Positions 39,050 through 62,455 of a DNA stretch of 64,000 nucleotides are shown piece after piece (positions within the stretch are counted from its first letter, which is position 1; every line of letters begins with the position of its first letter). Where the stretch lies: contig NZ_CP048817.1 in assembly GCF_014171475.1 (NCBI RefSeq), positions 3,534,001 through 3,598,000 on the forward strand, written 5' to 3'. The notes below the pieces were generated by a model. The model saw only the letters and a program-made list of their open reading frames with translations, ran no database searches and was not told where the DNA came from. The translations under genes and the position numbers were made by a program. Source of the DNA: Sphingomonas sp. So64.6b. Lineage in GTDB: Bacteria > Pseudomonadota > Alphaproteobacteria > Sphingomonadales > Sphingomonadaceae.

Positions 39050-39054
39050 ATGGG

Positions 39055-41457: not shown

Positions 41458-42894
41458 ATGGCTGACCTGAAGGTGAATGAGATCCGGATACCCGATTTGA
41501 TCGTAGATGGGCGGCGTCTCGAGACCGCGACCACCTTCGACGTGGTCAATCCCGCGACGGGGCGCGTTTTTGCCCAGGCACCGCTTGCCAGCCGCGACGA
41601 TCTCGACACTGCCGTCGCAGCAGCGCGTCGCGCCTTTCCGGAGTGGGCCAGGACACCGATCGACGAGCGAGCGGCCGCAGTGCTGGAGATCGCGCAGGCC
41701 ATCGAAGCGGAGAGGGAGCCGTTGGCCCGCCTTTTGTCGGCGGAGCAAGGTAAACCCATACACGGCGGCGCGGCCGGTGAAATCATGGGAGCCCTCGTCT
41801 GGGCCAGGGCGACAGCGAAACTGCGACCAGTTGTCGAGACGGTGCGCGACGACGATACCGCGCTGGTCCAGGTTCACAGGAAACCACTAGGGGTCGTGGG
41901 ATCGATCACACCTTGGAATCACCCGGTCATGATCGCCGTCTGGCACATCATGCCGGCATTGATCGCGGGGAACACCATTGTCGTGAAACCATCATCCTAT
42001 ACGCCGCTCAGCACGTTGAGGCTGGTCGAGATCGCCAATGCGCATTTGCCGCCAGGCGTCCTTAATTCGGTCGCGGGTGAAGGCGGGCTCGGTCGCGCGA
42101 TTGCCGAGCATCCCGGGATCGACAAGATCGTCTTTACGGGATCGACGCCGACCGGCCGCAGCATCATGGCCAGTGGCTCGGCCAACCTCAAACGACTGAC
42201 GCTGGAGCTTGGGGGCAACGACGCGGCGATCGTTCTGCCCGACGCCGACATCGATGCGATCGCGCCGAAAATATTCGCCAAGTCGTTTGGGAACAGCGGC
42301 CAAACCTGTGCGGCGCTCAAGCGCCTCTATGTCCATGAGTCGCTGCATGACCAGTTGGCGGGACGCCTGAGCGCGTTGGCCCGTGAGGCTAGGCTGGGGC
42401 CAGGTGATGACCCCGCGAGCCAGTTCGGACCAGTACAGAACCGCGCCCAGTTCGACTTCGTGTGTGAGCTTGCCGACGACGCGCGCGCCAATGGTGGTCG
42501 GTTCTTGGTTGGCGGACAGCCTCTGGCCGGAGACGGCTATTTCTTTCCATTGTCGATCGTGGTCGATGTCTCAGATGGAACCCGCGTCGTCGATGAGGAG
42601 CAATTCGGCCCCATCTTGCCGATCATCCGCTATAGCGATCCCGAGGACGCGCTGGCACGCGCCAACGCCAATGAGAATGGACTGGGCGGGTCTATTTGGT
42701 CGAGCGATATCGACGCCGCGACCGCCATGGCGCAGCGGCTCGAGTGCGGAACGGCCTGGGTCAATGATCATGCGACCATTAGCCCGGACGCCCCTTTCGG
42801 AGGCGCTAAGCAGTCCGGTATCGGCGCGGAGTTCGGCCTTCATGGCCTTGACGAATACATGCAGCTCCAGACTCTCAGGATCGGTCGCGGCTGA
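41458..42894 (+). CDS. NAD(P)-dependent aldehyde dehydrogenase
   Basis: A ~478-residue ALDH-superfamily enzyme, oxidising an aldehyde to its acid. Key motifs are TPWNHPV (cofactor-binding region), the catalytic general base Glu in LTLELGGNDA, the nucleophile Cys in NSGQTCAALKR, and EEQFGPILPI. The ATG at 41458 (MADLKVNE) has GGAAGA upstream; TTG or ATG starts a few codons earlier are possible. It is divergent from an MFS importer and followed by a GlxA-type regulator. In the proposed route it would take the arylacetaldehyde produced by the ThDP enzyme at 50607 to arylacetate. The substrate is not determinable from sequence alone. Confidence 0.88.
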   Translation: MADLKVNEIRIPDLIVDGRRLETATTFDVVNPATGRVFAQAPLASRDDLDTAVAAARRAFPEWARTPIDERAAAVLEIAQAIEAEREPLARLLSAEQGKPIHGGAAGEIMGALVWARATAKLRPVVETVRDDDTALVQVHRKPLGVVGSITPWNHPVMIAVWHIMPALIAGNTIVVKPSSYTPLSTLRLVEIANAHLPPGVLNSVAGEGGLGRAIAEHPGIDKIVFTGSTPTGRSIMASGSANLKRLTLELGGNDAAIVLPDADIDAIAPKIFAKSFGNSGQTCAALKRLYVHESLHDQLAGRLSALAREARLGPGDDPASQFGPVQNRAQFDFVCELADDARANGGRFLVGGQPLAGDGYFFPLSIVVDVSDGTRVVDEEQFGPILPIIRYSDPEDALARANANENGLGGSIWSSDIDAATAMAQRLECGTAWVNDHATISPDAPFGGAKQSGIGAEFGLHGLDEYMQLQTLRIGRG

Positions 42895-43005
42895 CCAAGG
42901 CGCTCCTTCCGTGTCGCGCAGCCGGCAGCGTCAGCTTGGCAAGCCGGGCCAGTGTGCCCCAGCGGGCGGGCGCGGTGGCTCCGCGAACAACTCTAGGAGC
43001 GGCGT

Positions 43006-43995
43006 ATGATGCAGCCGCCTTCCGTTCCCAAGCGAGTGCTGCTCCTCGCTTTTGAGGGGATTAACCTGCTGGACCTAGCGGGGCCGCTACAGGCCTTTGA
43101 GGCGAGCGAGCCACATCGCATGGCGCCCGAGCGTTACGAGACGGTCGTCGCGTCGCTCGCCGGTGGGGATATCCAGACGTCGACGCGCCTGCCGATCGGC
43201 ACCAGGAAACTCAGCGATCTAGAGAGTGGATCCTTCGATACGATCATGGTCGGTGGAGGTGGTGCGAACGGACGGCCGATTGTCGTGCCCCTGCTCGTCG
43301 ACTGGCTCCGAAACAATGTCGGCACAACCGATCGCATCTGCTCGATTTGCGCGGGTGCGTTTGTTCTCGCAGCCGCCGGGTTACTCGACGGCCGGCGCGC
43401 GACCACGCACTGGCATTGGACGGCGCTACTGCAGCGCGAAAACCCGTCGGTCGACGTCCAGGCAGACTCGATTTATACCCATGACGGTAAAATCTGGACG
43501 TCGGCGGGAGTGACCGCCGGGATCGATCTGACCTTGGCGCTGATCGAACAGGATCATGGCCACCAGGTCGCGATCCAGGCGGCGCGGCGGCTGGTCGTCT
43601 TTATGAAGCGACCGGGCGGCCAAGCGCAATTCTCGGCTCCCCTCATGCTGCAAAGCAGGAGCAACAAGCGATTTTCGGATCTTCATGCATGGATGAGACA
43701 GAACCTGGCTGATGATCTGAGAATCGATCGGCTGGCCGAGGTTGCGAGCATGTCCGAGCGCAATTTCAACCGGCTATATGTGGCGTCGGTCGGCGAAACA
43801 CCGGCTCGGTCGGTCGAGGCGATGCGCTTCGAGGCAGCCTGTGGATTCCTCGAATTGTCGTCGCTCCCGCTGAAGACGATCGCTTCTGCCGCAGGCCTTG
43901 GCAACGAACAGAATCTTCGCCGCCTGTTCGCGCGGCGGGCGGGCGTCACCCCGGCAGAGTATCGCCTGCGATTCGGCAAAGCCGGGCCTTCTTGA
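43006..43995 (+). CDS. GlxA-family AraC-type regulator with DJ-1/PfpI domain
   Basis: A 329-residue regulator. Residues ~8-195 are a DJ-1/PfpI domain (NLLDLAGPLQAF, Cys115 in SICAGAF, RRATTHW, SAGVTAGIDLTLAL). Residues ~225-325 form the AraC DNA-binding domain (LAEVASMSERNFNRLY and TIASAAGLGNEQNLRRLFARRAGVTPAEYR). It lies between the aldehyde dehydrogenase and a Tat-exported DJ-1 gene on the same strand. It is a good candidate for the local regulator sensing an isonitrile, amide or amine-like ligand through its DJ-1 domain. Confidence 0.88.
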   Translation: MMQPPSVPKRVLLLAFEGINLLDLAGPLQAFEASEPHRMAPERYETVVASLAGGDIQTSTRLPIGTRKLSDLESGSFDTIMVGGGGANGRPIVVPLLVDWLRNNVGTTDRICSICAGAFVLAAAGLLDGRRATTHWHWTALLQRENPSVDVQADSIYTHDGKIWTSAGVTAGIDLTLALIEQDHGHQVAIQAARRLVVFMKRPGGQAQFSAPLMLQSRSNKRFSDLHAWMRQNLADDLRIDRLAEVASMSERNFNRLYVASVGETPARSVEAMRFEAACGFLELSSLPLKTIASAAGLGNEQNLRRLFARRAGVTPAEYRLRFGKAGPS

Positions 43996-44168
43996 TTGAT
44001 CGGCCGAGCGCGTTGATGACCAGCGCCAGACGCCTTGGCCGGAATTGACGGCGGAACGTCATGGTCGATGAGCGGTGCCGATCATAGATTCGGCGGCATC
44101 AGAAAACGGCCGGTCTTGCGGTGTTTCTGTCTGCGGACTCTGGTTTTACCTAAAGAAAGGGACATTTT

Positions 44169-45071
44169 GTGGTGAGTGACGCGCAACCCGAAGATCACAA
44201 TGACCGACGCCGCTTTCTCCAAGCCATGACCGCAGCTGGCCTCGGCGGGCTTATGATGACACAAGGTGCAGGAGCGTTGGCGCAGCATACAGAGCCCCAA
44301 CCGAAGCCGATCCCACCGGGAACGCTAGGTGCCGCCGGCGCGGGTCCAGGTCGGCTGAAGATCGCCATGCTCGTCCACCCGATGATGGTGATGCAGGATC
44401 TAATCGGCCCACTCACCGTCTTCAATCTGATGCGCTGCGAGATTCACCTCGTCTGGAAGAACCGCGAACCGGTCATGACCGAGGTCGGTCTGCTGGTCGC
44501 GCCAACGACGACGTTTGCGGAATGCCCCGACCGTCTCGATGTCCTGTTCGCGCCGGGCGGCCTCGATGGATCGGTCGCGATCATGGATGATCCCGAAGTA
44601 CTAAACTTCTTCAAGGAGCAGGGTAAGACGGCGCGCTACATCACTAGCGACTGCACCGGGTCGCTTATCCTCGGGGCCGCCGGCCTGCTGCGCGGCTACA
44701 AGGCAACGAGCCACTGGTCGGTGCGAGACGAGCCTCTCGCGTTGATGGGGGCGATACCAACGCACCAGCGCGTCGTTGTCGACCGGAACCGCATAACGGG
44801 CGGCGGCGTCACCGCAGGCATCGACTTTGGTCTGACACTTGCCGCCCTCTTGCGCGGAAAGGAATCGGCCCAGACCATTCAACTCGTCATCGAATACGCA
44901 CCCGCGCCGCCATTCAACGCGGGCACGCCGGAAACGGCGCCAAAATCCATCTACGATGCCCTGGTAAGCCGACGTGCTGACCCGGTCGAACGGGCCCGAC
45001 AAAAGGCTGCGCGCGCGGCCGCATCTTGGACCAGCGCCGGTCGGACGACGGGCGGCGCTCGGGCGCACTGA
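44169..45071 (+). CDS. Tat-exported DJ-1/PfpI protein, isonitrile-hydratase-like (SDCTG variant)
   Basis: A 300-residue protein with GTG start after AAAGAAAGGG. The Tat signal NDRRRFLQAMTAAGLGG is followed by a Pro/Gly-rich linker. The DJ-1/PfpI domain starts near residue 63, with Asp77 (MQDLIGP), Cys162-Thr163, ATSHW and GGGVTAGIDFGL. The residue before the nucleophile is Asp161 (SDCTG) where paralogues have Val, a charged substitution right in the nucleophile elbow. The C-terminal 30 residues are basic and low-complexity. It is downstream of the second GlxA regulator. Confidence 0.82.
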   Translation: MVSDAQPEDHNDRRRFLQAMTAAGLGGLMMTQGAGALAQHTEPQPKPIPPGTLGAAGAGPGRLKIAMLVHPMMVMQDLIGPLTVFNLMRCEIHLVWKNREPVMTEVGLLVAPTTTFAECPDRLDVLFAPGGLDGSVAIMDDPEVLNFFKEQGKTARYITSDCTGSLILGAAGLLRGYKATSHWSVRDEPLALMGAIPTHQRVVVDRNRITGGGVTAGIDFGLTLAALLRGKESAQTIQLVIEYAPAPPFNAGTPETAPKSIYDALVSRRADPVERARQKAARAAASWTSAGRTTGGARAH

Positions 45072-45449: not shown

Positions 45450-45469
45450 GTGACAGTTTGGAGATGTTG

Positions 45470-46657
45470 ATGTTTGGGGACCTTGCTGAACCGCCCGTCG
45501 ATCCGATCCTCGGTCTTGCGCAAATGCTTGCGCGGGATACGAACATCGACAAGGTCGATCTCGGGATTGGCATCTACCACGACGAATGGGGCCGGGCCCC
45601 CGTTCTCAAATGCGTGAAGGACGCCGAGCGTTGGCTGCTCGAAACCCAGTCGAGCAAGCGCTACCTGTCGTCCGCGGGCAATGCTGACTTCAACTTGCGG
45701 ACACGCGAATTGCTGTTCGGCACAGGCAGCGATGCCTTTGATCGCAGTCGCGCACTGCAGACGCCGGGTGGCACCGGGGCGCTCCGGGTGGCCTCCGATC
45801 TGTTGAAGCGGTTGCGACCGGAAGGCCGGGTGTTCATCCCTGGACCGACTTGGCCCAACCACCCTGGCGTGCTCAAAGCGAGCGGTCATGAACTTGTAGT
45901 CTATCCCTATTATGATCAGGCGACCGCCACCCTCACTTTTGGTGCCATGATGGACGCGCTGGCGGACCTAAAGGCCGACGATACCCTCTTGTTGCACGGC
46001 TGCTGTCATAATCCGTCTGGCGCTGACCTCAACCTAGATCAATGGCGTACGATCGCAAGCTTGGTTGCCGCAAAGGGGTCGGCGGTACTGGTTGATCTTG
46101 CCTATCTGGGTCTTGGGGACGGCCTTGACGAGGATTCCGCCGGCCTTCGCCTGCTCGCAAGTGCCCTTCCCGAGCTGATCGTTGCGAGTTCCTATTCGAA
46201 GAACTTCGCACTCTACCGCGAACGTGTGGGCGCACTGACAGTGGTGGGCGCGACCGAGAAGGCGGCGGCCCTCGCACATTCCCATTCAATCCCGGTGGTA
46301 CGTACGCTTTATTCGATGCCGCCTGATCACGGAGCCGCCATCGTCGCCCGTATACTCGAAGACGGCGAGTTGCGGCGCGGCTGGGAAGCCGAGCTCGCGG
46401 TTATGCGCGAGCGTATCAACGCCATGCGTGCCCAGTTAGCGGCCAGATTGGCTGCTCAGAGCGGCCGCGATTATAGCTTCATCGCGCGCCAGCGCGGGAT
46501 GTTCACGATGCTCGGTATCTCTCCCCCAATGGTCGAGATTCTACGCAGCGATCATCACATCCACTTGACCAGTTCAGGCCGGATCAACGTCGCCGGTTTG
46601 AACACCCAGAATGTCGAGCGCGTCGCGGACGCGATCGCTGCGGTAAACTTGCTGTAA
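45470..46657 (+). CDS. Aromatic/aspartate aminotransferase (class I, PLP-dependent)
   Basis: A ~395-residue enzyme of the AspC/TyrB family, which exchanges an amino group between aspartate or an aromatic amino acid and a 2-oxo acid. The PLP lysine is in SSYSKNFALYRERVG (Lys244 from this start). HNPSG, VDLAYLGLGDGLDEDS (PLP-pyridine Asp) and the substrate-carboxylate Arg in SSGRINVAGL are present. The start at 45470 (MFGDLAEPPVDPILGL) has GGAG six bases upstream and matches the family N-terminus. A weak terminator follows. In this context it would convert a tyrosine-like amino acid to an arylpyruvate. Confidence 0.88.
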   Translation: MFGDLAEPPVDPILGLAQMLARDTNIDKVDLGIGIYHDEWGRAPVLKCVKDAERWLLETQSSKRYLSSAGNADFNLRTRELLFGTGSDAFDRSRALQTPGGTGALRVASDLLKRLRPEGRVFIPGPTWPNHPGVLKASGHELVVYPYYDQATATLTFGAMMDALADLKADDTLLLHGCCHNPSGADLNLDQWRTIASLVAAKGSAVLVDLAYLGLGDGLDEDSAGLRLLASALPELIVASSYSKNFALYRERVGALTVVGATEKAAALAHSHSIPVVRTLYSMPPDHGAAIVARILEDGELRRGWEAELAVMRERINAMRAQLAARLAAQSGRDYSFIARQRGMFTMLGISPPMVEILRSDHHIHLTSSGRINVAGLNTQNVERVADAIAAVNLL

Positions 46658-46683
46658 CGGTGTCGAGGGGGAATTCGGTCCCG

Positions 46684-46842: not shown

Positions 46843-48264
46843 TTAGCTGGCAGCGACAACAGCGCCTGGATTGCAGTGGTTCTGTGGATCCAGCGCGTGT
46901 TTGATCGTGGCGAACAACGCGTTCTCGACCGGATCGACCGCGCCCGCCACGGCGTCGCGCATTTTTCGCCCTACCCCGTGCTCGGCGCAGATCGATCCGC
47001 CCAGCGCCAGGGCCGTTTCGTGGATGGCCGCCGTTAGCGCATCGAGCGGCAGCTCCGAGCCGTCTTCCGGGTGGTGGATCGAGTAATGCACATTGCCATC
47101 ACCGACATGGCCGAAAGCGAGTGACCTGCACCCTGGCGCCACCGACATTGCTCGCTGTGAGGCCTGCTCGATGAAAGAAGCAACGGCGCCGAGCGGGACG
47201 GCGACGTCGACATTGACCCCAAGCCCGGCTCGACGCTTGCCGTCGACCAAGCCCTCGCGCAGACGCCACATGGCGAGGCGCTGCGCTTCGCTCTCCGCGA
47301 TCGCGGCGTCCAGAATGACTGCGCCCTCCAGCATCCCTGCGAGCGCCTGCTCGAAATCGTTGCGCAGTCCCGCGCCAATGCCCGATGTCGCCACTTCGAC
47401 CAGCACGTACCATGGATGCTCGTCGGCCAGGGGGAGCCGCGTTCCAGCGATCGCGTTGAGCGCGAGTTCTACACCCCAGTGCTGCATCAGCTCGCACGCA
47501 ACCACTAGATCTCCCATCTCGTGGCGCAACCTGTTGAGCAGCGTGAGCGCGGCGCCAGGTGAACTCACGCCGACTATAGCCGTCTCGATGCGACGCCAAG
47601 TCGGGACGAGGCGGACGGCCGCCGCCGTAACGATACCTAAGGTTCCCTCCGCGCCGATAAAAAGCTGCTTCAGGTCGTAACCCATATTGTTCTTCAAGAC
47701 GGTGCGCAGACCATGCCAGATGCGTCCGTCAGGCAGGACCACCTCAAGGCCCAGTATCTGCGCCCTCATCACGCCGTGGCGTAGTGCACGGGTCCCACCG
47801 GCATTGGTCGAAACGAGCCCCCCGATCGACGCGCTACCTTCTGATCCCAACCCCAGCGGAATTTGGAGATCGCTTCCCGCGACCGCTGCCTGCACCTCTG
47901 CCAGCAAGCACCCCGCCTCCGCGATGACCGCGGGCGTATCCGGTTCGATCGCGCGAATCGCGCGTAGTCGGCTGAGCGATAGAAGGATCGTTGGTTCATT
48001 CGGGTCACCCGCGCTGCCTCCTGTCAGGCCAGTGTTCCCGCCTTGTGGTACGACACCCAAGCCGCTGGCGGATGCCGCTCGGACGATCGCTGCGACTTCC
48101 ACTGTGTTGCGCGGCCGCGCCACGGCAACGGAGCGACCCGGCCAGCGCCCCGTCATATCCTGCATGAACGGCGCCATCAGGCACTCCTCGGTGATAATGA
48201 GGCCATCCGCGAGCGCTCCCAACTCGTGGATCAATGCTTCGGTAGATCCGCTCTTTAAAGACAT
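46843..48264 (-). CDS. FAD-linked 2-hydroxyacid dehydrogenase (GlcD/D-lactate or D-2-hydroxyglutarate type)
   Basis: A ~473-residue VAO-family flavoprotein. The FAD-binding PCMH domain is in the first ~210 residues (ARPRNTVEVAAIVRAA, VVPQGGNTGLTGGSAG, GGLVSTNAGGTRALRHG, GAEGTLGIVTAA). The C-terminal FAD-oxidase domain has the metal/substrate motif FGHVGDGNVHYSI and CAEHGVGR. The ATG at 48264 has a strong GAGGGAGG ribosome site; an upstream GTG at 48321 is less likely. It is divergent from the DJ-1/PfpI gene at 48374. It would oxidise a D-2-hydroxyacid to a 2-oxoacid, a second route into the arylpyruvate pool. Confidence 0.85.
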   Translation of the reverse strand: MSLKSGSTEALIHELGALADGLIITEECLMAPFMQDMTGRWPGRSVAVARPRNTVEVAAIVRAASASGLGVVPQGGNTGLTGGSAGDPNEPTILLSLSRLRAIRAIEPDTPAVIAEAGCLLAEVQAAVAGSDLQIPLGLGSEGSASIGGLVSTNAGGTRALRHGVMRAQILGLEVVLPDGRIWHGLRTVLKNNMGYDLKQLFIGAEGTLGIVTAAAVRLVPTWRRIETAIVGVSSPGAALTLLNRLRHEMGDLVVACELMQHWGVELALNAIAGTRLPLADEHPWYVLVEVATSGIGAGLRNDFEQALAGMLEGAVILDAAIAESEAQRLAMWRLREGLVDGKRRAGLGVNVDVAVPLGAVASFIEQASQRAMSVAPGCRSLAFGHVGDGNVHYSIHHPEDGSELPLDALTAAIHETALALGGSICAEHGVGRKMRDAVAGAVDPVENALFATIKHALDPQNHCNPGAVVAAS

Positions 48265-48323
48265 GATCAGGGCCTCCCTCTGGGCTTTACGATTATCGAG
48301 ATTCTCGTCATAATACGACACAC

Positions 48324-48342: not shown

Positions 48343-48373
48343 CTCATGCTACACTAAAAGGAGTTGAGCCATA

Positions 48374-49063
48374 ATGTCGCTGACCATCGGGATGATTCTT
48401 TTTCCCGGCCTTACCAATCTCGATCTCGCAGGCCCGTTCGAAGTGCTGGCGAAACTACCCGAAACGCGCGTCGATCTGTTATGGAAGACCATTGAGCCAG
48501 TCGTCAGCGACGCTGGCCAGAGACTGATTCCCTCCCGCGCGCTCGCCGATGCGCCGCAATATGATATTCTTTTCGTGCCTGGCGGGCCCGGTCAGGTCGC
48601 GTTGATGGATGATTCCGAGGTGATCGATTTCGTGCGGCGGCAAGGCGAGGGCGCCCGTTGGGTCACGTCGGTATGCACTGGCGCGCTTGTGCTGGGCGCC
48701 GCTGGATTGCTGGCAGGCTATCGTGCTGCAACTCACTGGACCGCGATGGATCAGCTGGCGCTGTTCGGTGCTATTCCTACTCAAAAAAGAGTGGTCCAGG
48801 ACCGCAACCGGCTGACCGGCGGCGGGGTTACTGCGGGGATCGATTTTGGGTTGACGCTTGCTGCGCTGTTGTTTGGAGAGGATTTGGCAAGGCGCATCAC
48901 GCTCGGCCTGGAATACGCTCCCGAGCCGCCTTTCGAGTGTGGGACGCCAGAACGCGCATCACCTGCCTTGATCGAGGAACTCAGGAGCCGCGGAGCCCGC
49001 CGGGGAGCCGACCGGCTTGCCGCCTCGCAACGCGCTGCTGCACGACTAAACGCGCTGACCTGA
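48374..49063 (+). CDS. inhA: Isonitrile hydratase-like DJ-1/PfpI protein (cytoplasmic)
   Basis: A 229-residue protein without a signal peptide, the best match here to Pseudomonas isonitrile (isocyanide) hydratase, which adds water to R-NC to give an N-formyl amine. Family catalytic residues fall at the published positions: Asp17 (NLDLAGP), Cys101 and Thr102 (SVCTGAL). ATHW and GGGVTAGIDFGL are also present, and the length is typical. AAAAGGAG precedes the ATG. It is divergent from the 2-hydroxyacid dehydrogenase, with a palindrome between. As the only cytoplasmic single-domain member here, it is the likeliest true intracellular hydratase. The gene symbol is by family resemblance. Confidence 0.8.
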   Translation: MSLTIGMILFPGLTNLDLAGPFEVLAKLPETRVDLLWKTIEPVVSDAGQRLIPSRALADAPQYDILFVPGGPGQVALMDDSEVIDFVRRQGEGARWVTSVCTGALVLGAAGLLAGYRAATHWTAMDQLALFGAIPTQKRVVQDRNRLTGGGVTAGIDFGLTLAALLFGEDLARRITLGLEYAPEPPFECGTPERASPALIEELRSRGARRGADRLAASQRAAARLNALT

Positions 49064-50455: not shown

Positions 50456-50533
50456 CTCCGAGTCTCCCCCCGTCATGTCTCGCCGTCTAATCGCGATATA
50501 GACAATTTAAGTTAGATCGTATAGCGCAACATG

Positions 50534-50540: not shown

Positions 50541-50606
50541 ATGACGCAACAAGCCTCACAGTGCATCTGTTCTCTGGCGGCTGAACGAAAAATGGGAAAA
50601 GAACCG

Positions 50607-53570: not shown

Positions 53571-54050
53571 ATGAAGAAGCCGGACCGCAAACTGCCCGCC
53601 TATAGCGACTCCCTCGCCGGTACGCTGCTTGCCGCGCGCGAGGCGGTCATGTCGCCGATCCGGCCGATGCTGCGCGATGCGGCGGTCACCGAACATCAAT
53701 GGCGTGTACTGCGCGTGCTCGACGATCACGGATATATCGAGCCGACCGCGCTGGCGGGGACAGCGCTGCTTTATGCGCCAAGCGTCGCTCGCATTCTCAA
53801 GGATCTGGTCGAACGCGGCCTGGTGCTGCGCGCGCCCCACCCCGGCGATGGCCGCCGCTCGGTGTTGTCGCTGTCAAACGCCGGCAAGAGCTTGATGCGG
53901 CGCACCTCCGCTAAGACCGTAGCGAAGCTCGACGACTATACCGAACAATTCGGCCAAGAGCGAATCACCGCGCTGATCACCGAGCTCAAAGCGTTGACTG
54001 AGGCGATCGGATCAGCCGCGAGCTCAGGCAAAATCCCGTCAGAGACCTAG
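53571..54050 (+). CDS. hpaR: MarR-family regulator of homoprotocatechuate degradation (HpaR-like)
   Basis: A 159-residue MarR repressor. The N-terminal RKLPAYSDSLAGTLLAAREAVMSPIRPMLR and winged helix VTEHQWRVLRVLDDHGYIEPTALAGTALLYAPSVARILKDL match the HpaR branch, which represses 4-hydroxyphenylacetate/homoprotocatechuate genes until the ring substrate binds. It sits at the edge of the hpa cluster. Its 3' end overlaps the convergent succinate-semialdehyde dehydrogenase gene by 12 bases. The probable target is the divergent hpaE/hpaG promoter region near 57000. Confidence 0.85.
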   Translation: MKKPDRKLPAYSDSLAGTLLAAREAVMSPIRPMLRDAAVTEHQWRVLRVLDDHGYIEPTALAGTALLYAPSVARILKDLVERGLVLRAPHPGDGRRSVLSLSNAGKSLMRRTSAKTVAKLDDYTEQFGQERITALITELKALTEAIGSAASSGKIPSET

Positions 54051-55463
54051 GCAGACATATTTGAGCTCAAGATAGTCATCGAGCCCGTGCCGTGAACCTT
54101 CGCGGCCAACACCAGAGGCCTTGACGCCACCGAATGGGCCGAGTTCGGTTGAAATCAGCCCCGTATTGACACCGACAATTCCAGTTTCCAACCCCTCCAT
54201 GATTCGCCAGAGCCGACTTAGGTCCCGGCCGTAAACATAAGCAGCCAAACCGAACGGACTGTCATTGGCCAGTGCGAGAACTTCGTCGTCGGTCTCGAAA
54301 CGGACGACAGCCGCCAAAGGACCAAACGTCTCTTCGTTCGCGACAAGCATGCTGCTCGTGACATCGCCGATTACGGTCGGCGTATAGAAGCGGCCATGAC
54401 GCCGCGCGCCGCCACACAACAGGCGCGCGCCCTTGTCGAGCGCGTCGGCAACATGGCGGTCGACTTTTGCAATCGCCGCTTCATTGATCAGCGGGCCGAT
54501 TGTACAGGTTTCGTCGGTACCGGGACCCACCCGCAGCGCCGACACCGCCGAGACAAGCCGGTTGAGGAAAGGTTCGTAGACGCCGGACTGGACGTAGAAG
54601 CGATTGGCGCAAACGCAGGTCTGGCCCGCGTTACGAAACTTTGACAGGATCGCGCCAGCCACAGCCGCATCCAGATCGGCATCGTCGAATACGATGAATG
54701 GCGCATTCCCACCCAGTTCCAGGCTAAGCTTCTTGATGGTCGGCGCGCACTGGGCGAACAGCTTCGCGCCCGTTGCAGTAGAACCGGTGAAGCTGAGCTT
54801 TCGGATGCGCGGATGCGCGGTGAGGACGCCGCCGATCGCAACAGGATCGCCAGTGACGATGTTCAGCACGCCGGCCGGCACGCCTGCTTCCTGCGCAAGT
54901 GCGCCGATCGCCAGCGCCGTGAACGGGGTCTGTTCGGCGGGCTTGAGAATGAGCGCGCAGCCGGCTGCCAGCGCCGGCGCCAGTTTCCGCGTTACCATCG
55001 CCGCCGGAAAATTCCAGGGCGTGATCGCGGCGACCACGCCAACCGGCTGCTTCAGCACGAGGATGCGCTTGTCGGCAGCAGGCCCTGGCACGATTTCGCC
55101 GTAGGCGCGCTTCGCTTCCTCGCCGAACCATTCGAGGAACGCCGCCGCATAGGCGATTTCGCCGCGCGCTTCAGCCAGCGGCTTGCCCTGCTCCGCCGTC
55201 AACAGCTGCGCCAGCTCCTCCTGGCGAGCCATCACCAAGTCGAACAGCCTGCGAAGCACGTTCGCACGGTCCTTCGCTGCCAGCGCCGCCCAGGCTGGCA
55301 TTGCCGCCGCCGCTGCATCGATTGCGGCGGCGGTTTCGTCTGCTCCAAACGAAGGGACGCGACCGATGATCATCCCGGTCGCAGGATCGTCCACCTCAAG
55401 CCACTCGTTACCCGTCACCCATTGACCGCCGATCAGACACGCCTCGCGGCGCAATGCCATCAT
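54039..55463 (-). CDS. gabD: Succinate-semialdehyde dehydrogenase
   Basis: A 474-residue ALDH of the GabD type. It has [23 protein letters not shown], Glu in [12 protein letters not shown], catalytic Cys in [27 protein letters not shown], and the SSADH-like end [34 protein letters not shown]. It oxidises the succinate semialdehyde released by HpaI to succinate, completing the homoprotocatechuate pathway. Start codon and upstream hpaE stop overlap (ATGATG), so the two are coupled. Confidence 0.88.
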   Translation of the reverse strand: [474 protein letters not shown]

Positions 55464-56959
55464 GCGACGCCGAGCCGAGGCACGTTGTGGGTACCATATG
55501 CGAGCGCGATGTTCTTCGTTTCCATATAGAAGTCAAAGCTCCAGTCGCCCCCGTCGCGACCGATGCCGCTTGCCTTGGTGCCGCCGAACGGCGTTGGGAG
55601 GTGACGGACATTGTCGCTGTTCACCCACACCATGCCGGCGTTGAGCGCGTTGGCGACGCGCAATGCCCGTCCGCCGTCGCCGCTCCATAAATACGCGGCC
55701 AGACCATAAGCAACATCGTTCGCCTTCGCGACCGCGTCCGCCTCGCCGTCGAACGGAATCACGGTTAGAACAGGGCCGAAAATCTCCTCCTGCGCAATCC
55801 GCATATGTTGGCGACCTTGCGTGAACAGAGTCGGCTGGAAAAAATAGCCGCTTTCGCCATGCCGCTCGCCGCCTACGGCGATCGTCGCCCCATCGTCGCG
55901 CGCTACAGCCATGTAGCTCTGGACCTTCTCCAAATGACGCGGATGGATCAGCGGGCCGACTTCTGTCGCAGGGTCGAACGGATCGCCAACCTTGAGTTGC
56001 TTCACGCGCTCCTCGAGCCTTGCCACGAATTGGTCATGGATCGATTGCTCGACAAGCAGCCGCGACGAGGAGGTGCAGCGCTGTCCGTTGAGCGAGTAAA
56101 TCATAAAGACCGCCGCATCGAGCGCACGCTCAAGGTCGGCGTCGGCGAAGACGACCACCGGATTCTTCCCACCCAGTTCAAAATGGACGCGCTTCAGCGT
56201 ATCCGCCCCCTGCCGCATGATGGCTGAACCGGTCTTCGACTCGCCGACAAAGGCAATAGCCTTGATGTCCGGATGCTCGGTAAGCCGCCGGCCGGTGGTC
56301 TCCCCCAGACCGTTCACCGCGTTGAAAACGCCCGCCGGGAGCCCGGCCTCGTGCGCGATCTCGACGAGCAGTCGCGCCGAATAAGGCGACCATTCGGCGG
56401 GCTTGTGCACGACGGTGCAGCCGGCCGCGAGCGCAGGCGCGATCTTCCAGGTCGAGAGCATGAAAGGCGTGTTCCACGGCGTAATCACGGCGACCGGCCC
56501 GATCGGATGCCGGGTCGTGACGTTAAGATGGTCGGAGCTGGGAAGCGACTGACCATCGCGCGCGGCCGGCGCGCGATCGGCGAAGAAACGGAAATTCTCG
56601 GCGCCGCGTACCGCTGCCTTCGACATAAAGCGCCATGCCTGGCCAGCATCGAGACATTCCACGCCCGCGATCTCGTCGGCGCGCGCTTCAATCATATTGG
56701 CGACCCGGTGAAGCAGCGCCTTGCGCTTTTCACCCGACAGCGCAGCCCAACTCGGAAACGCGTCCCGCGCCGCCGCCACTGCTGCGTCAACCTCGTCGGG
56801 GCTCGCGTCAAAGGCCTGCCCGATAACGCCGCCGGTCGCCGGTTCGAGCACGTCGAACGGCTGCCCGCCCGCGGCTACGGATTCCCCGGCGATGAAGTGG
56901 CCGAGCGGATTCGGCATACGGGCGACGGTCGCAAGAGCGGCTTCGCGGGATGACGGCAT
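55460..56959 (-). CDS. hpaE: 5-carboxymethyl-2-hydroxymuconate semialdehyde dehydrogenase (HpaE)
   Basis: A ~499-residue ALDH of the HpaE/HpcC group, which oxidises the ring-cleavage product of homoprotocatechuate. It shows GHFIAGESV near the start, [34 protein letters not shown] (NAD site), [16 protein letters not shown], the nucleophile in [11 protein letters not shown] and [11 protein letters not shown]. The ATG at 56959 has GGAG six bases upstream; in-frame ATGs at 56962 and 56971 are also possible. It is divergent from hpaG1, sharing an ~80-base control region. gabD follows in the same transcript. Confidence 0.88.
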   Translation of the reverse strand: [499 protein letters not shown]

Positions 56960-57006
56960 CATAGTCTCCATGGTTGATGTGAACGCAATAACGGTCGCGC
57001 TGTATG

Positions 57007-57034
57007 TTGACAACTTATCATTGCTAAGTATATT
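57007..57034 (+). promoter_or_regulatory. Strong sigma-70 promoter of the hpaG-hpaI operon
   Basis: TTGACA (57007-57012), 16-base spacer, TATATT (57029-57034). Transcription would start at about 57041, essentially at the hpaG1 ATG (57042), so the message may be leaderless. TATGTTGA at 57003-57010 resembles half of the MarR operator at 17141 and may be part of the HpaR site. Confidence 0.6.
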
Positions 57035-57041
57035 TCAGAGC

Positions 57042-57644
57042 ATGATTTCGGGCACGGTCTATGGCGTCGTCTTGAACGACCAGAGCGAACGCGCGGCCTT
57101 GTCGGGGGCCTTTCTGGAGGCGCCTTATAGGGCGCCGCCCGAAGCACCTGTCCTCTACATCAAGCCGCGCAACACAATTTCCGCGAGCGATTCGATCGTG
57201 GCGGTGCCGGCCGATATTGCCGAGGTTACGGTCGCCGCGACCTTGGCGCTGGCGATCGGCGACAGGGGACAGCCAGTGGCTGCGCGACTCGCCATCGACG
57301 TGAGCGAACCCCACGACTGCTATTTCCGTCCGGCGATCCGCGAACGATGTCGCGACGGCTTCCTGCCGCTCGGGCCGGAGGGAGCGCTTCCAAATCCGAC
57401 CGAACAAATCGTGACGCTGATCGATGGTCATGAGGTGCATCGTTGGTCACTCGACCGACTGGTGAGTCCCATGCCGGAGCTCTTGCACGATATCGGCTGT
57501 TTCATGTCGCTCCTGCCTGGCGACATCCTTCTGATTGGGCTCGCGGGCGATGCGCCGAAAGCCCGCCCGGGGCAGACCGTTACCGTCCAATGCGGCGATA
57601 GACTGCCGCTCGTCGCCCATATCGGCGTGGAGAAAGAGGCATGA
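57042..57644 (+). CDS. hpaG1: HpaG N-terminal-type subunit (FAH family; decarboxylase/isomerase half 1)
   Basis: A 200-residue FAH-fold protein equivalent to the N-terminal half of E. coli HpaG (MISGTVYGVVLND, PYRAPPEAPVLYIKPRNT). In E. coli one fused protein does the decarboxylation of 5-oxopent-3-ene-1,2,5-tricarboxylate and the following isomerisation; here the halves are separate genes. The usual FAH metal triad is not evident in this half. ATG at 57042 is supported by alignment with the family N-terminus, although the promoter predicts almost no leader. Its stop overlaps the start of the second half. Confidence 0.82.
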   Translation: MISGTVYGVVLNDQSERAALSGAFLEAPYRAPPEAPVLYIKPRNTISASDSIVAVPADIAEVTVAATLALAIGDRGQPVAARLAIDVSEPHDCYFRPAIRERCRDGFLPLGPEGALPNPTEQIVTLIDGHEVHRWSLDRLVSPMPELLHDIGCFMSLLPGDILLIGLAGDAPKARPGQTVTVQCGDRLPLVAHIGVEKEA

Positions 57645-58390
57645 AGCGCGCTCGGTTGAGCCATGCCGGCAAGGCACGCTGGGGAACGTTGGTGGATAAT
57701 GATCACGCCGTCATGCTCGATGGTGGCCCGATGATCGCGGTCGCCGATGCGCGGTGGCTGCCGCCGGCGGAACCGGGTGCGACGATCTTCGCGCTGGGCC
57801 TCAACTATGTCGATCACTCGGCGGAACTTGGCTTTGCCGCCCCCAAGAGGCCGTTGATTTTCCTCAAAGGCGCCAATGCGCTTGTGGGTCATGGCGCCGC
57901 GACGCCTCGCCCTGCGGATGCTAACCAGATGCACCCCGAATGCGAGCTCGTGGCGGTCATCGGCCGCCAAGCCCGCAGAGTTTCGATCACGGATTCCCTA
58001 GACTATGTCGCTGGCTACACGGTCGCCAATGACTATGCGATTCGCGAATATCTTGAGAATTACTACCGGCCAAATCTGCGCGTAAAGAATCGCGACCGTA
58101 CGACCCCGCTTGGGCCGTGGATCGTCGATGCGGCAGACATTGCAGACCCACAACGGTTGGCGCTCTCGACGACGGTCAACGGCGACATCGTGCAGCAGGG
58201 CTCGACGGCGGATATGGTCTTCTCGGTTGCGCAGCTGATCGAGCATCTGTCGAGTTTTATGACTTTAATGCCCGGCGACCTCGTCCTCACCGGAACGCCG
58301 CATGGCCTCCGCTTCGTAGCGCCGGGCGATGTCGTCACCTGCGAGATCGAGGGCGTAGCAAGGCTCGTCAATCATGTAGAGGCAATATGA
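57641..58390 (+). CDS. hpaG2: HpaG C-terminal-type subunit (FAH family; decarboxylase/isomerase half 2)
   Basis: A 249-residue FAH-family enzyme equivalent to the C-terminal half of HpaG, with the metal-binding region HPECELVAVIG, a FALGLNYVDHSAELG entry, TVANDYAIRE and LMPGDLVLTGTPHG. It performs decarboxylation/isomerisation to 2-oxohept-3-ene-dioate in the homoprotocatechuate pathway. It is four-base coupled to both hpaG1 and the LigA-type gene. Confidence 0.86.
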   Translation: MKRARLSHAGKARWGTLVDNDHAVMLDGGPMIAVADARWLPPAEPGATIFALGLNYVDHSAELGFAAPKRPLIFLKGANALVGHGAATPRPADANQMHPECELVAVIGRQARRVSITDSLDYVAGYTVANDYAIREYLENYYRPNLRVKNRDRTTPLGPWIVDAADIADPQRLALSTTVNGDIVQQGSTADMVFSVAQLIEHLSSFMTLMPGDLVLTGTPHGLRFVAPGDVVTCEIEGVARLVNHVEAI

Positions 58391-58713
58391 GTCTCTATAC
58401 GCTCAGCAAGCTCCTGTTCGAACTCAATCGCGACGAGGCGCTCAAGGCAGCGTTCGTCACCGAGCCGACTGTGGTCGTCGATCGCTACCGGCTGACCGAC
58501 GACGAGCGCCAAGCCGTGCTCGAACCGGACATCGGGCTCCTCTACGTTCTTGGGGTAAACGGCCAGATTCTGATGCATTATGCCGCGCAGCGCGGCATCG
58601 AATGGTCAGATTATCTTCAACGGATGCGTGATGGCGTGAAGATGCATGGCCCGGTCCGAGCCGGAATTTATGCGATGACCACCAGGGTCGATGAAAAGGT
58701 GGCAGGCGCATGA
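58387..58713 (+). CDS. LigA-type alpha subunit of an extradiol dioxygenase
   Basis: A 108-residue helical protein of the LigA family (YTLSKLLFELNRDEALKAAF, YRLTDDERQAVLEPDIGLLYVLGVN). It is the small subunit that caps the active site in protocatechuate 4,5-dioxygenase (LigAB). The ATG at 58387 overlaps the hpaG2 stop, and its own stop overlaps the LigB-type gene. Homoprotocatechuate dioxygenases are usually single-subunit (HpaD), so a LigA partner in this pathway is noteworthy. Confidence 0.82.
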   Translation: MSLYTLSKLLFELNRDEALKAAFVTEPTVVVDRYRLTDDERQAVLEPDIGLLYVLGVNGQILMHYAAQRGIEWSDYLQRMRDGVKMHGPVRAGIYAMTTRVDEKVAGA

Positions 58714-59528
58714 GCCTCGTATTTGCCGGTGTCTGCAGTCACGGCCCAGGAATAACAGGTCGCGCGGATCGCGCACCGCCGGTCCAGCGGGATGCACTCT
58801 ACGCGGCTTATGACCGGCTGCGCGAGCGACTCTGGGACGCCCGACCTGACGCGCTGATCGTCATCGCGGCAGAGCATTTCGCCAACTTCTTCATGAACAA
58901 CATGCCCCCTTATGCGATCGGCATGGGCGAAACCTATGACGGGCCGATCGAGGATCCCGACTGGCTCCGTATACCCCACCGCGAAGTGCGCGGCGATCCA
59001 GAGCTGTCGAAACGCCTGATCGCCGAGATGATGCACACGGTCGACGTTGCCTATTGCGAAGAGTGGCGATTTGACCACGGCATCATGGTGCCGCTGCACT
59101 TCCTCGATCCTGGCAACCGCCTCACCATCATTCCGGCGAACATCAACTGCCAAGGGCCGCCCCTCACGCCGCTATCGCGCGCCTGGGCGTTTGGCGAGGC
59201 GATCCGACGCGCGGCTGATGGGGTGCCCGAACGGATCGCGCTGGTCGGCACCGGTGGGATCTCGCATTGGCCGGCAACGCCTGACAGCGGCCGGATCAAT
59301 GAGGCGTGGGATCTCGAGTTTTTGGCGCGATGGGCGGCGAACGATCGTGACACGTTGATCGGCTATTCCGACGAAGAGATTTATCGCGACGCGGGTCAGG
59401 GTGGGTTCGAGATCCGCACTTTCGTGGCAACCGCAGCCGCGGCCGGCGGGAGAGGGACGGTCCATCACTACGACCCGATCCCAATCTTCTCTGTCGGTTG
59501 CACGACGGCCACGATGGAGATCGCGTGA
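58710..59528 (+). CDS. LigB-type catalytic subunit of the ring-cleavage extradiol dioxygenase
   Basis: A 272-residue class III extradiol dioxygenase. Iron ligands and the acid/base residues are visible as His11 (VCSHGPG), His56 (AAEHFANFF), His123 (FDHGIMVPL), His186 (GTGGISHW) and Glu198 (RINEAWD). Together with the LigA-like protein it should cleave a catecholic ring next to the hydroxyls. From the neighbouring genes the substrate is homoprotocatechuate (3,4-dihydroxyphenylacetate). The protein is coupled to the isomerase gene downstream. Confidence 0.85.
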   Translation: MSLVFAGVCSHGPGITGRADRAPPVQRDALYAAYDRLRERLWDARPDALIVIAAEHFANFFMNNMPPYAIGMGETYDGPIEDPDWLRIPHREVRGDPELSKRLIAEMMHTVDVAYCEEWRFDHGIMVPLHFLDPGNRLTIIPANINCQGPPLTPLSRAWAFGEAIRRAADGVPERIALVGTGGISHWPATPDSGRINEAWDLEFLARWAANDRDTLIGYSDEEIYRDAGQGGFEIRTFVATAAAAGGRGTVHHYDPIPIFSVGCTTATMEIA

Positions 59529-59923
59529 TGGCACACGTTACCGTGGAATGGTCTGCCAATCTGGCGAGTGACTTCGATCTCGGTGCACTGCTTCGGTTGA
59601 TCGCCGAAACGATGCGCGAGCGCGCCGACGGTACCTTTCCCGTTGGCGGCATACGTGTGCGCGGCCTGCGCACCGACAGCTATGTCATCGCCGACGGCGC
59701 GAACCCAAACGACGGCTTTATCGACCTTCGCGTACTAATGGGCGCTGGCCGCAGCGCTGAGTTCCGCCGGAGCTTCTTTGACTCTCTGTTCGCGGAGGTC
59801 CGCGACCATTTGGGGGACCTTTTCGACCGCCGTCCCGTCGCTTTGTCGATGTATGTCGAGGAAGCAGAGGGCTGGAAGCACAACAGCATTCACCGCCGTC
59901 TGGCGACAACGAAAGCAATCTGA
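59528..59923 (+). CDS. hpaF: 5-carboxymethyl-2-hydroxymuconate isomerase (HpaF) with Ala in place of Pro1
   Basis: A 131-residue CHMI-family protein of the tautomerase superfamily: [61 protein letters not shown]. The family uses the N-terminal Pro1 as base, but here the second codon is GCA (Ala). The start is constrained by the overlap with the LigB stop (TGATG), and no nearby alternative gives a Pro start. The isomerase may be slow, use another mechanism, or be redundant with spontaneous ketonisation. Its position in the operon is as expected for HpaF. Confidence 0.82.
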
Positions 59924-60729
59924 TGGCTTTGGCGCACGACACGGTGGAAGCGCTGGCTGAGCGCCTGGACGAGGCGGAACGCGAGCGGCGTCAGTTGCCG
60001 CAATTCTCCCGCGACAATCCTGACATGACGATAGAGGACGCTTATGCGGTGCAGCGTGCCTGGACGGCAAGGAAGCTAGCGGGCGGCCGCAAGGCGATCG
60101 GTCACAAGATCGGTCTAACGAGCCGTGCCATGCAACGGTCTTCGAACATTACCGAACCTGATTACGGCCTGTTGCTCGACGACATGCTGTTCTCTGATCA
60201 GCGCGACATACCGATTGATCGCTTCATCGTGCCCAGAGTCGAAGTCGAGCTCGCTTTCCGGCTTAAAAAGAGTCTCGAGGGCCCAGGACTTACGATCTTC
60301 GATGTGCTCGATGCGACCGACTATATCGTACCTGCGATCGAAATCATTGATGCCCGGATCGAACAAGTCGATCAGGCCAGCGGCGTCACGCGTAAGGTGT
60401 TCGACACGATCAGCGACAATGCCGCAAATGCCGGTCTCGTGCTTGGCGGCCGCCCGATCCGCCCGCATGATGTCGACTTGCGCTGGGTGTCAGCGCTTCT
60501 GCATCGCAACGGCGTGATCGAGGAATCGGGGGTCGCCGCCGCCGTGCTTGGCCATCCGGCGCACGGACCGGCCTGGCTCGCGAACAAGCTCGCGGCGCAT
60601 GATGAACGATTAGAAGCGGGCGAGATCATCCTTGGCGGGAGCTTCACGGCACCCGTGCCCGCAGCCCGTGGCGATACCTTTCATGTCGACTATGGTCCGC
60701 TCGGTTCGATCGCGGTGCGGTTCGCATGA
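59923..60729 (+). CDS. hpaH: 2-oxohept-4-ene-1,7-dioate hydratase (HpaH)
   Basis: A 268-residue member of the hydratase/decarboxylase (MhpD/HpaH) family. It shows [41 protein letters not shown], the metal ligands in [36 protein letters not shown] and [13 protein letters not shown]. It hydrates the ring-cleavage-derived dienoate to 4-hydroxy-2-oxoheptanedioate, the substrate of HpaI. Overlaps hpaF and hpaI. Confidence 0.9.
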
Positions 60730-61484
60730 GCCTCTTTGGCAAGCTGTGCGCTGAGGGGCGTCCACTGCTCGGGTTGTGGCAGGCGCTGGCGAACCCGTAC
60801 ACCGCCGAGATCTGCGCCGGTGCGGGATTTGATTGGTTATTGTTCGACGGCGAGCACGCTCCCCAAACAGCGCAGACCCTTGTTGCGCAGCTCCAGGCCT
60901 GTGCGCCATACTCACTCCATCCCATCGCCCGCGTTCCAGTCGGCGAGCCGGCCTTCATGAAACAGTATCTCGACATCGGGTTCGAGACGTTGTTGGTCCC
61001 GATGGTCGACACAGCCGCGCAGGCCGAAGCGTTGGTCGCAGCTACGCGCTTTCCACCGCAGGGTATCCGGGGGGTCGCCAGTGCGACCAGCCGCGCGTCG
61101 GGTTTCGGGTCGAACACGAGCTATCTCGCTGAAGCGCGCAATCGGACGGCGCTGATCTGTCAGATCGAGACCCGCGCCGGCCTCAGCTCAATTACCCAGA
61201 TCGCGGCGGTCGAGGGCGTCGAGGCGCTCTTCATCGGACCGGCCGATTTGGCCGCGTCGCTTGGCCATCTAGGCCAACCACGCCATCCCGATGTACAGAG
61301 GGCGATCGCGCAAGCTCTCGCCGCGATCCAAGGGGCCAACAAGCCGGCTGGAATATTCGCGCTCGATGCGGATGACGCCCGCGCCCGCATCGCGCAGGGT
61401 TTTACGTTTGTCTCTGTTGGGACCGATATCGGGGTGCTGGCGAATGGCGCGAAAAACCTGCGCATCGCGTGCCTCGCCGGTTAG
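60726..61484 (+). CDS. hpaI: 4-hydroxy-2-oxoheptanedioate aldolase (HpaI)
   Basis: A 252-residue class II pyruvate aldolase of the HpcH/HpaI family. It shows [70 protein letters not shown], metal ligands in CQIETRAG and [15 protein letters not shown], and an end with [12 protein letters not shown]. It cleaves 4-hydroxy-2-oxoheptanedioate to pyruvate and succinate semialdehyde. It is last in the hpaG-hpaI operon and overlaps the convergent FAH gene by four bases. Confidence 0.92.
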
Positions 61485-62455
61485 GCAGAAACTAGACGAT
61501 TGCGCAGCACGCCGATGCCTTCCACTTCCAGCTCGACGACATCGCCGTCGTCGAGAAAGGTGAGGCTCTCATAGCCGCAGCCATCGCCCACCGTTCCGAA
61601 CGCGATCAAGTCGCCCGGATGGAGCGTTTCGTCGGTTGAGATATAGGCGATCGTCTTCGCCGCTGAATGCTGCATGTTGCCGCTGGTAGTGCGCACTTTC
61701 TCGACACCGTTCACCCGCACAATCATCGTCAGCGCTTCCGGGTCGGCAATCTCATCGGCGGATACGATGTACGGCCCGATCGCATTTCCGGTGTCGAAGT
61801 CCTTGCCCTTGGCCGGGCCGAAGCGAAATGAGGTCTCGCGCGATTGCAGGTCACGCGCGCTGAAATCGTTAAAAATAGTATATCCAAACACCGCGTCGAG
61901 CGCGTCGGCTTCGCTCAAATTCTTCGCTGGGCCACCGATGATCGCGGCGAGTTCTAGCTCATAGTCCATCAGCTTGGCGGCGCTTGGCCGCACGATGTCG
62001 GCGTCAGGGCCGACCACTGTCATCGGGTTCCCCTTGTAGTACAGCGGCTGCTCATACCAGACCGGCGGGATGTCGAAAGCGCCTGCGGCCCGAAACCTAG
62101 CCAAAGTCGCCTCGGGATCAGGCGTCGCGCGGGCGCGTAACTGCTGCGCGGCGGCGATCGCTTGCGAGACGTGCTTCTCGTAATTACCGCAGTCACGAAT
62201 CTGGGTCGGCCGCATAAGCGGGGCCAGCAACGACGCTTCCCTGCTGTCAACCAACATGCCCGCAGGCGGCTCTGCGAGCCAGCTGGCGATACGCGCGAGG
62301 CCGGCGCGACCCGCAGCGATGACGGCGAGCATGTCATCGAGTGGCACCCCGCCCCCGGCACGCGCCGCAGCGGCGATGTTGAGGATGTGCCCATCGCCGG
62401 CAATGGCACCTGGCGTTGGCAGGCCGTTCGCGACGGTGAAAGTGACGAATTTCAT
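61481..62455 (-). CDS. Fumarylacetoacetate hydrolase-family protein
   Basis: A 324-residue FAH-superfamily protein (FAH domain ~85-320: QIRDCGNYEKHV, YYKGNPMTVVGP, LMDYELELAAIIGG, GYTIFNDFSARDLQ, FDTGNAIGPYIV, TLHPGDLIAFGTVGDGCG). It is coupled to the FAD monooxygenase upstream on the minus strand by a four-base overlap. Such pairs hydrolyse ring-fission acyl-pyruvates, or act on hydroxylated aromatic side products. Its difference from hpaG1/G2 suggests a second ring-cleavage branch. The specific substrate is unknown. Confidence 0.82.
   Translation of the reverse strand: MKFVTFTVANGLPTPGAIAGDGHILNIAAAARAGGGVPLDDMLAVIAAGRAGLARIASWLAEPPAGMLVDSREASLLAPLMRPTQIRDCGNYEKHVSQAIAAAQQLRARATPDPEATLARFRAAGAFDIPPVWYEQPLYYKGNPMTVVGPDADIVRPSAAKLMDYELELAAIIGGPAKNLSEADALDAVFGYTIFNDFSARDLQSRETSFRFGPAKGKDFDTGNAIGPYIVSADEIADPEALTMIVRVNGVEKVRTTSGNMQHSAAKTIAYISTDETLHPGDLIAFGTVGDGCGYESLTFLDDGDVVELEVEGIGVLRNRLVSA

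Follow-up and report, generated by a model that had tools for sequence, protein, structure and literature searches.

Isonitrile hydratase (InhA/ICH of Pseudomonas) belongs to the DJ-1 superfamily; it yields N-formamides (PMC10971408), and its role is presumed to be adaptive defence, with isocyanide natural products as the threat (PMC10792529). Isonitriles are known copper ligands (PMC10792529; PMC9600254; PMC12140626), and valine isocyanide was inhibitory to both bacteria tested while N-formylvaline was not (PMC9381783). An ICH homologue tied to one gene cluster is XanA of the Aspergillus xanthocillin cluster, presumed to make N-formyl derivatives (PMC5974471); XanA stands in a biosynthetic cluster, whereas the ICH-like genes described here have catabolic neighbours. 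They were found in a 64,000-nucleotide stretch of Sphingomonas sp. So64.6b (the window, positions 3534001-3598000 of the sole 5.06 Mb contig of the genome), which we tentatively read as holding a rare catabolic module around an exported member of the ICH family, in which a periplasmic ICH would make an N-formyl compound that would then be deacylated and degraded. Other systems to be compared are the aminotransferase and thiamine diphosphate (ThDP) decarboxylase pairs named AruH/AruI, the homoprotocatechuate (hpa) meta-cleavage pathway and copper uptake genes of the methanobactin/chalkophore type. No isonitrile catabolic or exported-ICH system was described in the open-access literature searched, subscription papers lying mostly outside it.

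Gene typing with NCBIfam and Pfam profiles, scored against the cut-offs of the models, found every gene named in an earlier note on this DNA where that note had placed it. The single ICH-like gene of the note became five in the window upon a search with its protein, the one encoded at 48374, and that search also added a sixth, ichF, 12 kb past the window end (Table 1). A seventh ICH-family match of the genome lies at C1:3719629, and six of the seven are packed into 51 kb. In a census of 296 genomes of the order (E <= 1e-40, up to eight candidates scored per genome), the family was matched in 70, with seven members in this genome and at most three in any other. Like Pseudomonas ICH, ichA to ichE match the DJ-1_PfpI domain of Pfam, ichF being assigned by similarity and tree only, and the six proteins are 44-52% identical to the P. 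fluorescens enzyme (52% for ichE). Residues and phylogeny were compared over 41 rows, comprising 35 ICH-like proteins and six DJ-1/AraC regulators. Asp17 and Cys101 are present in all six ICH-like proteins and in all six regulators; Thr102 is present in five of the six (ichC has Asn instead) and in four regulators. The D17/C101/T102 trio, which the note had listed for the 48374 protein, is indeed there but is not diagnostic, because four of the six regulators have all three residues, and we dropped it as proof of an isonitrile hydratase. A C-terminal motif, EYxPxPP[F/Y], separates the two groups, occurring in 35/35 ICH-like rows and 0/6 regulators, and the tree splits the ICH-like rows, P. fluorescens ICH among them, from the regulators with support of 100/100. 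Exported rows fall mostly on one branch (24 of 26, support 97/97; ichC and a second G111 protein lie outside), although the tree cannot measure how common export is, these rows having been picked mostly through searches with exported queries. By sequence, ichA to ichF are members of the ICH family, for which hydration of isonitriles is predicted. Some of the close relatives of ichD bear Sphingomonas, Sphingobium or Sphingopyxis names.

A difference from Pseudomonas ICH lies at the N-terminus. Judged by eye rather than with a signal predictor, ichA, ichB, ichC, ichD and ichF start with a pair of arginines (RR), then a run of hydrophobic residues and an AxA-like end, features that ichE lacks, and several of the genes stand beside TonB receptors or catabolic genes. 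These five proteins are apparently exported via twin-arginine-type signals. Among the best 120 homologues listed per query, counting those of at least 262 residues, RR occurs within the first 45 residues of 98/104 homologues of ichD and of 114/114 homologues of ichA, ichA itself counted. The database copy of ichD (P0002, 234 residues) begins at about 44367 instead of 44169 and has no export signal; this start is probably misplaced, since an 86% relative (P0001) carries the signal. Near the exported ICH genes, a RidA-family protein (34203-34724) also has an RR-type N-terminus and is possibly exported.

The open reading frames (ORFs) of the locus were compared, by reciprocal best matches, with 58.5 kb around each of two similar loci, one in G708, a metagenome-assembled genome named Niveispirillum (order Rhodospirillales), and one in G111, from another family of the same order as the window. 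Orthologues common to all three genomes form a conserved core of an aldehyde dehydrogenase, an aminotransferase, a ThDP enzyme, an M20 amidohydrolase, a FAH protein, LigB2, FAH2, a Rieske oxygenase, IclR1, RidA, IclR2 and a TonB receptor, and gene order is nearly collinear between G708 and G111. Each of the three genomes thereby links an exported ICH-family enzyme with an N-deacylase, an aromatic aminotransferase, a ThDP enzyme and an aldehyde dehydrogenase. The earlier note had drawn this link with ichE; it recurs in the three genomes with a different partner, the exported type encoded at 44169 (ichD). Conservation of the neighbourhood in relatives, on which the note had staked its proposal, was found in G708 and G111 and for parts of the set in G790 and G896. 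An Amidohydro_2 protein and an MFS carrier are also common to G708 and G111 (identified with Pfam for the G111 copies and by eye for those of G708). In G790, the exported ichD overlaps a cytosolic ICH and is accompanied by MFS, LigB2 (71%), FAH1 (48%), IclR1 (58%), reg2 (45%) and a TonB-like receptor (by eye). G896 combines an exported ICH (67% to ichA) with a DJ-1/AraC regulator, an AstE_AspA-type deacylase, MFS (60%), an aminotransferase (62%) and a partial Rieske match (50%). Neither genome showed a ThDP or M20 match within 19.5 kb. That the deacylase of G896 comes from a different family but has a similar setting suggests that N-deacylation is a needed step. A possible aliphatic counterpart is found on an Acuticoccus plasmid (L093:1-7699), where an ICH, a GlxA-type regulator, an M20 'argE' (46% to that of the window), a Glu/Leu/Phe/Val dehydrogenase and an acetamidase/formamidase lie within 8 kb. 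Plasmid relatives of LigB2 and the Rieske oxygenase belong only to general aromatic clusters.

The components of this core are rare. At E <= 1e-165, the ThDP protein was found in 2/296 genomes of the order (this one and G111, at 68%) and in 4/385 genomes of the class (this one and three at 50-52%); LigB2 at E <= 1e-110 was found in 1/385 class genomes, namely this one, and ichD at E <= 1e-75 in 3/397 family genomes (this one, G790 at 61% and G896 at 56%). As a neighbourhood control, 40 ICH loci of the order (39 best matches of ichE and one of ichD, their N-termini not individually checked for an export signal) were set against 40 stretches 60 kb away on the same contigs, each covering 18 kb (about 9 kb either side), with tblastn at E <= 1e-12 and at least 45% of the query in a single piece. 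Ten core genes were scored (aminotransferase, ThDP, M20, LigB2, FAH1, FAH2, Rieske, RidA, Amidohydro_2 and MFS), and any of them occurred at 0/40 ICH loci versus 2/40 control stretches. N-deacylase, aminotransferase and ThDP queries had no match at any of the 40 ICH loci, and the N-deacylase none in the 40 control stretches either. Relatives of the aldehyde dehydrogenase (26-27% identity) were seen at 2/40 versus 0/40, of the TonB receptor at 2/40 versus 3/40, and of HpaE at 3/40 versus 2/40, while a DJ-1/AraC regulator accompanied 11/40 ICH loci and 0/40 control stretches (Fisher p = 4e-4). With core genes at 0/40 ordinary loci, the idea that ICH genes generally stand beside catabolic genes was dropped; the core is special and not the usual surroundings of these genes.

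Judging by its genes, the module looks made for the uptake and digestion of an aromatic compound that contains nitrogen; an isonitrile antibiotic is one possibility. From the gene content, its conservation, the export-type N-termini, the ICH-family membership and the catalytic residues, we infer the reactions, the substrate and the order of steps as follows. An aromatic isonitrile derived from an amino acid, either free or chelated with a metal, would enter the periplasm through the TonB receptor, where a Tat-exported ICH (ichD, with its paralogues ichA, B, C and F) would hydrate it to the N-formyl compound, removing the toxic group before it could reach respiratory enzymes. The MFS carrier would import this product, the M20 enzyme would remove the formyl group, and the aromatic aminotransferase and RidA would handle the resulting amine or imine. 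The ThDP enzyme would then decarboxylate the 2-oxoacid and the aldehyde dehydrogenase would oxidise the aldehyde, leaving the ring to be opened by the Rieske oxygenase, the LigB-type dioxygenase and the FAH hydrolases. For a diisonitrile such as xanthocillin, one might speculate on deformylation, imine hydrolysis by RidA and diketone cleavage by the ThDP enzyme.

The genes of the M20 and ThDP enzymes, called coupled in the earlier note, overlap by 4 bases. Assignment of the ThDP enzyme as a 2-oxoacid decarboxylase is favoured because its Rhizobium homologues (about 46%) likewise adjoin an aminotransferase. The enzyme resembles AruH/AruI-type pairs in that its second-best NCBIfam match is PRK07524, a 5-guanidino-2-oxopentanoate decarboxylase (376 bits, below the cut-off of 500); it differs from those pairs in its coupling with an N-deacylase and an exported ICH. 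A kinship between the FecBCD-type importers of the Rhizobium aminotransferase/ThDP pair and of the Allorhizobium ICH locus discussed below was dropped, identity being only 34-35% and generic.

Several observations weigh against a module for isonitrile catabolism. The M20 protein passes the NCBIfam model for acetylornithine deacetylase (TIGR01892, 405 bits for a cut-off of 298), which counts against its predicted role as a deformylase and against the reading of the earlier note, a point softened by two M20 paralogues (45-46%) elsewhere in the genome. The hydratase is not strictly orthologous across the three genomes, because the exported ICH that adjoins TonB in G111 shares 59% identity with ichA and only 49% with ichD. 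In the window genome, the core is scattered over about 39 kb with other genes interspersed, and no Amidohydro_2 partner was seen in the stretch fetched. The characterised ICHs known to us are cytosolic enzymes. Moreover, an ICH gene alone does not imply catabolism, since the 40 ordinary loci had no deacylase, aminotransferase or ThDP neighbours.

The alternative that best withstands these data, though we hold it unlikely, is that the substrate of the module is an aromatic dimer or an aromatic amino acid with an N-acyl group, no isonitrile being involved, and that the exported DJ-1 proteins hydrolyse or hydrate an amide, lactone or aldehyde. Without the ICH, the core is already coherent (N-deacylase, aminotransferase, decarboxylase, aldehyde dehydrogenase, Rieske, LigB and FAH), and both the acetylornithine deacetylase score of the M20 enzyme and the sharing of the residue trio with regulators would fit. 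Set against this are the grouping of the DJ-1 proteins with P. fluorescens ICH, apart from the regulators, and the presence in them of Cys101, Asp17 and, in all except ichC, Thr102, together with the C-terminal motif of ICH.

Rather improbable, in our estimate, is that the ICH-like proteins, as periplasmic and cytosolic hydratases, serve only in defence against isonitrile antibiotics, which they would neutralise, and adjoin ordinary aromatic catabolism by chance or through a shared mobile history. Defence is the role presumed for ICH (PMC10792529), and the lack of catabolic neighbours at ordinary ICH loci agrees with it. Six copies per 51 kb suggest selection for dose or range, and transposase-like ORFs (by eye) lie between the ICH paralogues. 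Such ORFs or fragments at 19993-21507 and 29727-30630 suggest that the island was assembled out of mobile parts. A chance association is nevertheless opposed by the nearly collinear exported ICH, TonB, LigB2, ThDP and M20 genes of G708 and G111 and by the parts retained in G790 and G896.

Copper genes beside ichF and beside an Allorhizobium homologue point to another or an additional role, which also tells against the catabolic module. Allorhizobium ampelinum S4 and Agrobacterium vitis VAT03-9 each have an exported ICH as the last gene of an apparent operon, together with a FecBCD-type importer, SCO and a 'copper uptake system-associated' protein (matching PCuAC and NF033672 in S4, 127 bits for a cut-off of 50), as in copper uptake genes of the methanobactin/chalkophore type. 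Unlike in such systems, no importer of this kind was seen beside ichD, and ichF is preceded by a weak match to CopC (24 bits, cut-off 95), with CopA (TIGR01480, 744 bits, cut-off 479) and CopB (PF05275) nearby. An exported ICH of G203 comes after genes for TonB and PepSY_TM. No adjoining copper gene was recognised at the exported-ICH loci of ichB, ichC, ichD, A. vitis T60/94, Thalassospira, G064, G090 and G081, and the idea that a metal transporter adjoins the exported ICHs of G064 and G090 was dropped, the G090 gene having no Pfam match. One could conceive, at long odds, of 'chalkophore eating', in which exported ICHs take apart metal chelates of isonitriles. Copper-isonitrile complexes made by competitors would come in through TonB receptors, and the periplasmic ICH would destroy the metal-binding isonitrile groups of the ligand; the freed copper would be used (SCO and PCuAC operon of Allorhizobium) or, with CopA/CopB next to ichF, treated as a toxin. 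Genomes with the module would then consume the N-formylated ligand by way of the core of deacylase, aminotransferase, ThDP and ring-cleavage enzymes. A search for isonitrile synthases gave no match and has no bearing here, its positive control being likewise without a match anywhere.

The earlier note had also made a nearly full hpa set the second half of the pathway. The block (53571-61484) shares HpaE, HpaG-C, HpaF, HpaH and HpaI-like genes with the homoprotocatechuate pathway; HpaE, HpaG-C and HpaH exceed their NCBIfam cut-offs, while HpaG-N, HpaI and HpaR fall short. It differs in its ring cleavage, which is of the two-gene LigA+LigB type (58387-59528) in place of HpaD, the model for the HpaD-type 2,3-dioxygenase giving 30 bits against a cut-off of 316, and in HpaB, the 4-hydroxyphenylacetate 3-hydroxylase (PF03241), which had no match in this genome, G111 or G708 in a search that was positive in 4/14 control genomes. 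HpaR, LigA, LigB, HpaF, HpaH and HpaI had no match in the 58.5 kb at G708 or G111, the rest of those genomes not having been searched for this set. HpaE has a 46% reciprocal best match to a G708 aldehyde dehydrogenase and HpaG-C a 34% one to a G111 FAH protein; we take each of these for a different member of a large family. Because neither the hpa set at the loci of G708 and G111 nor HpaB in the window genome was found, we treat the block as a neighbour, which would either work as a pathway of its own or have been acquired here as a second route of ring cleavage. The GlcD-type dehydrogenase that the note had also enlisted has no match at either locus and lies outside the core. That ichE, M20, aminotransferase, ThDP and aldehyde dehydrogenase supply 4-hydroxyphenylacetate to the hpa block is thus very improbable: every piece except the hydroxylase lies within 21 kb, but the core has ring-cleavage genes of its own.

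Table 1. Features of the window and, prefixed L048 and numbered separately, of the stretch directly past its end. Percentage pairs give identity to G708/G111; bit scores are followed by the model cut-off.
Feature	Position	Strand	Basis
reg1, FtrA/GlxA-like regulator with DJ-1 and AraC-type domains, preceding TonB receptor and ichA	22222..23184	+	PF01965, PF12833
TonB-dependent receptor, 4-base overlap with ichA	24121..26301	+	PF00593, PF07715
ichA, ICH-like DJ-1 protein, RR-type signal	26298..27128	+	Pfam, residues, RR statistic
ichB, ICH-like DJ-1 protein, RR-type signal	28429..29280	-	Pfam, sequence, residues
ichC, divergent ICH-like DJ-1 protein, RR-type signal, Asn for T102	32974..33783	-	Pfam, sequence, residues
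Aldehyde dehydrogenase of core (start possibly 41446 or 41458)	41440..42894	+	PF00171; 74%/69%
reg2, DJ-1 and AraC-type regulator	43006..43995	+	Pfam; 46%, reciprocal best match in G708 only
ichD, ICH-like, RR-type signal, ICH of core	44169..45071	+	65%/49%
Aromatic aminotransferase	45458..46657	+	PRK09257, 494 (377); 62%/61%
GlcD-type FAD 2-hydroxyacid dehydrogenase	46843..48321	-	Profiles
ichE, cytosolic-type ICH-like protein	48374..49063	+	Similarity to P. fluorescens ICH; D17, C101, T102
MFS transporter	49103..50476	-	PF07690
ThDP enzyme, proposed 2-oxoacid decarboxylase	50541..52265	+	PRK08266, 709 (571); 69%/68%
M20 amidohydrolase, proposed N-deacylase (deformylase)	52262..53437	+	NCBIfam, Pfam; 66%/65%
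HpaR-like MarR regulator, just under cut-off	53571..54050	+	116 (121)
Succinate-semialdehyde dehydrogenase	54039..55463	-	TIGR01780, 681 (646)
HpaE, 5-carboxymethyl-2-hydroxymuconate (CHM) semialdehyde dehydrogenase	55460..57013	-	TIGR02299, 755 (638)
HpaG-N-like FAH protein, below cut-off	57042..57644	+	NCBIfam
HpaG-C isomerase/decarboxylase	57641..58390	+	TIGR02303, 332 (276)
LigA-type dioxygenase small subunit	58387..58713	+	PF07746
LigB-type extradiol dioxygenase large subunit, replacing HpaD	58710..59528	+	PF02900
HpaF, CHM isomerase	59498..59923	+	PF02962
HpaH hydratase	59923..60729	+	TIGR02312, 437 (351)
HpaI-like aldolase, below cut-off	60726..61484	+	TIGR02311, 313 (369)
FAH-family hydrolase of core	61481..62455	-	PF01557; 47%/43%
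FAD monooxygenase, truncated by window end (ORF runs 104 bases further)	62452..64000	-	PF01494; 26% to G111, none in G708
LigB2	L048:166-1188	-	70%/73%
FAH2	L048:1217-2176	-	77%/79%
Rieske oxygenase	L048:2212-3495	-	78%/76%
IclR1	L048:3606	+	55%/53%
RidA	L048:5611	+	51%/60%
ichF, ICH-like, RR-type N-terminus	L048:12160-13005	+	Similarity, tree
IclR2	L048:13309	+	72%/72%
TonB receptor	L048:14186	-	55%/52%

Other genes were also recorded. Small ORFs without a Pfam match, at 23281-23880 of the window and at L089:13592-14011, each lie directly before a TonB receptor gene that is itself followed by an exported ICH gene; a DUF2946 identity for them was dropped for want of a Pfam match. An ECF sigma factor, an anti-sigma-like ORF (by eye), a YNCE-type beta-propeller protein and a DUF305 protein are consecutive at 35809-39145, and a relative of MlrC (microcystinase) is encoded at L048:6148-7614 (433 bits, cut-off 999).

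If the reading as a catabolic module is true, an enzyme so far presumed to act in defence (PMC10792529) would gain a nutritional role, its exported form being tied by a conserved gene set to uptake, deacylation and ring cleavage. The combination of an export signal, a TonB receptor and an N-deacylase would then offer a genome signature for isonitrile consumers, and bacterial consumption of isonitrile natural products would become directly testable. As isonitriles are both antibiotics and copper ligands, such a module would bear on microbial competition, copper acquisition and resistance.

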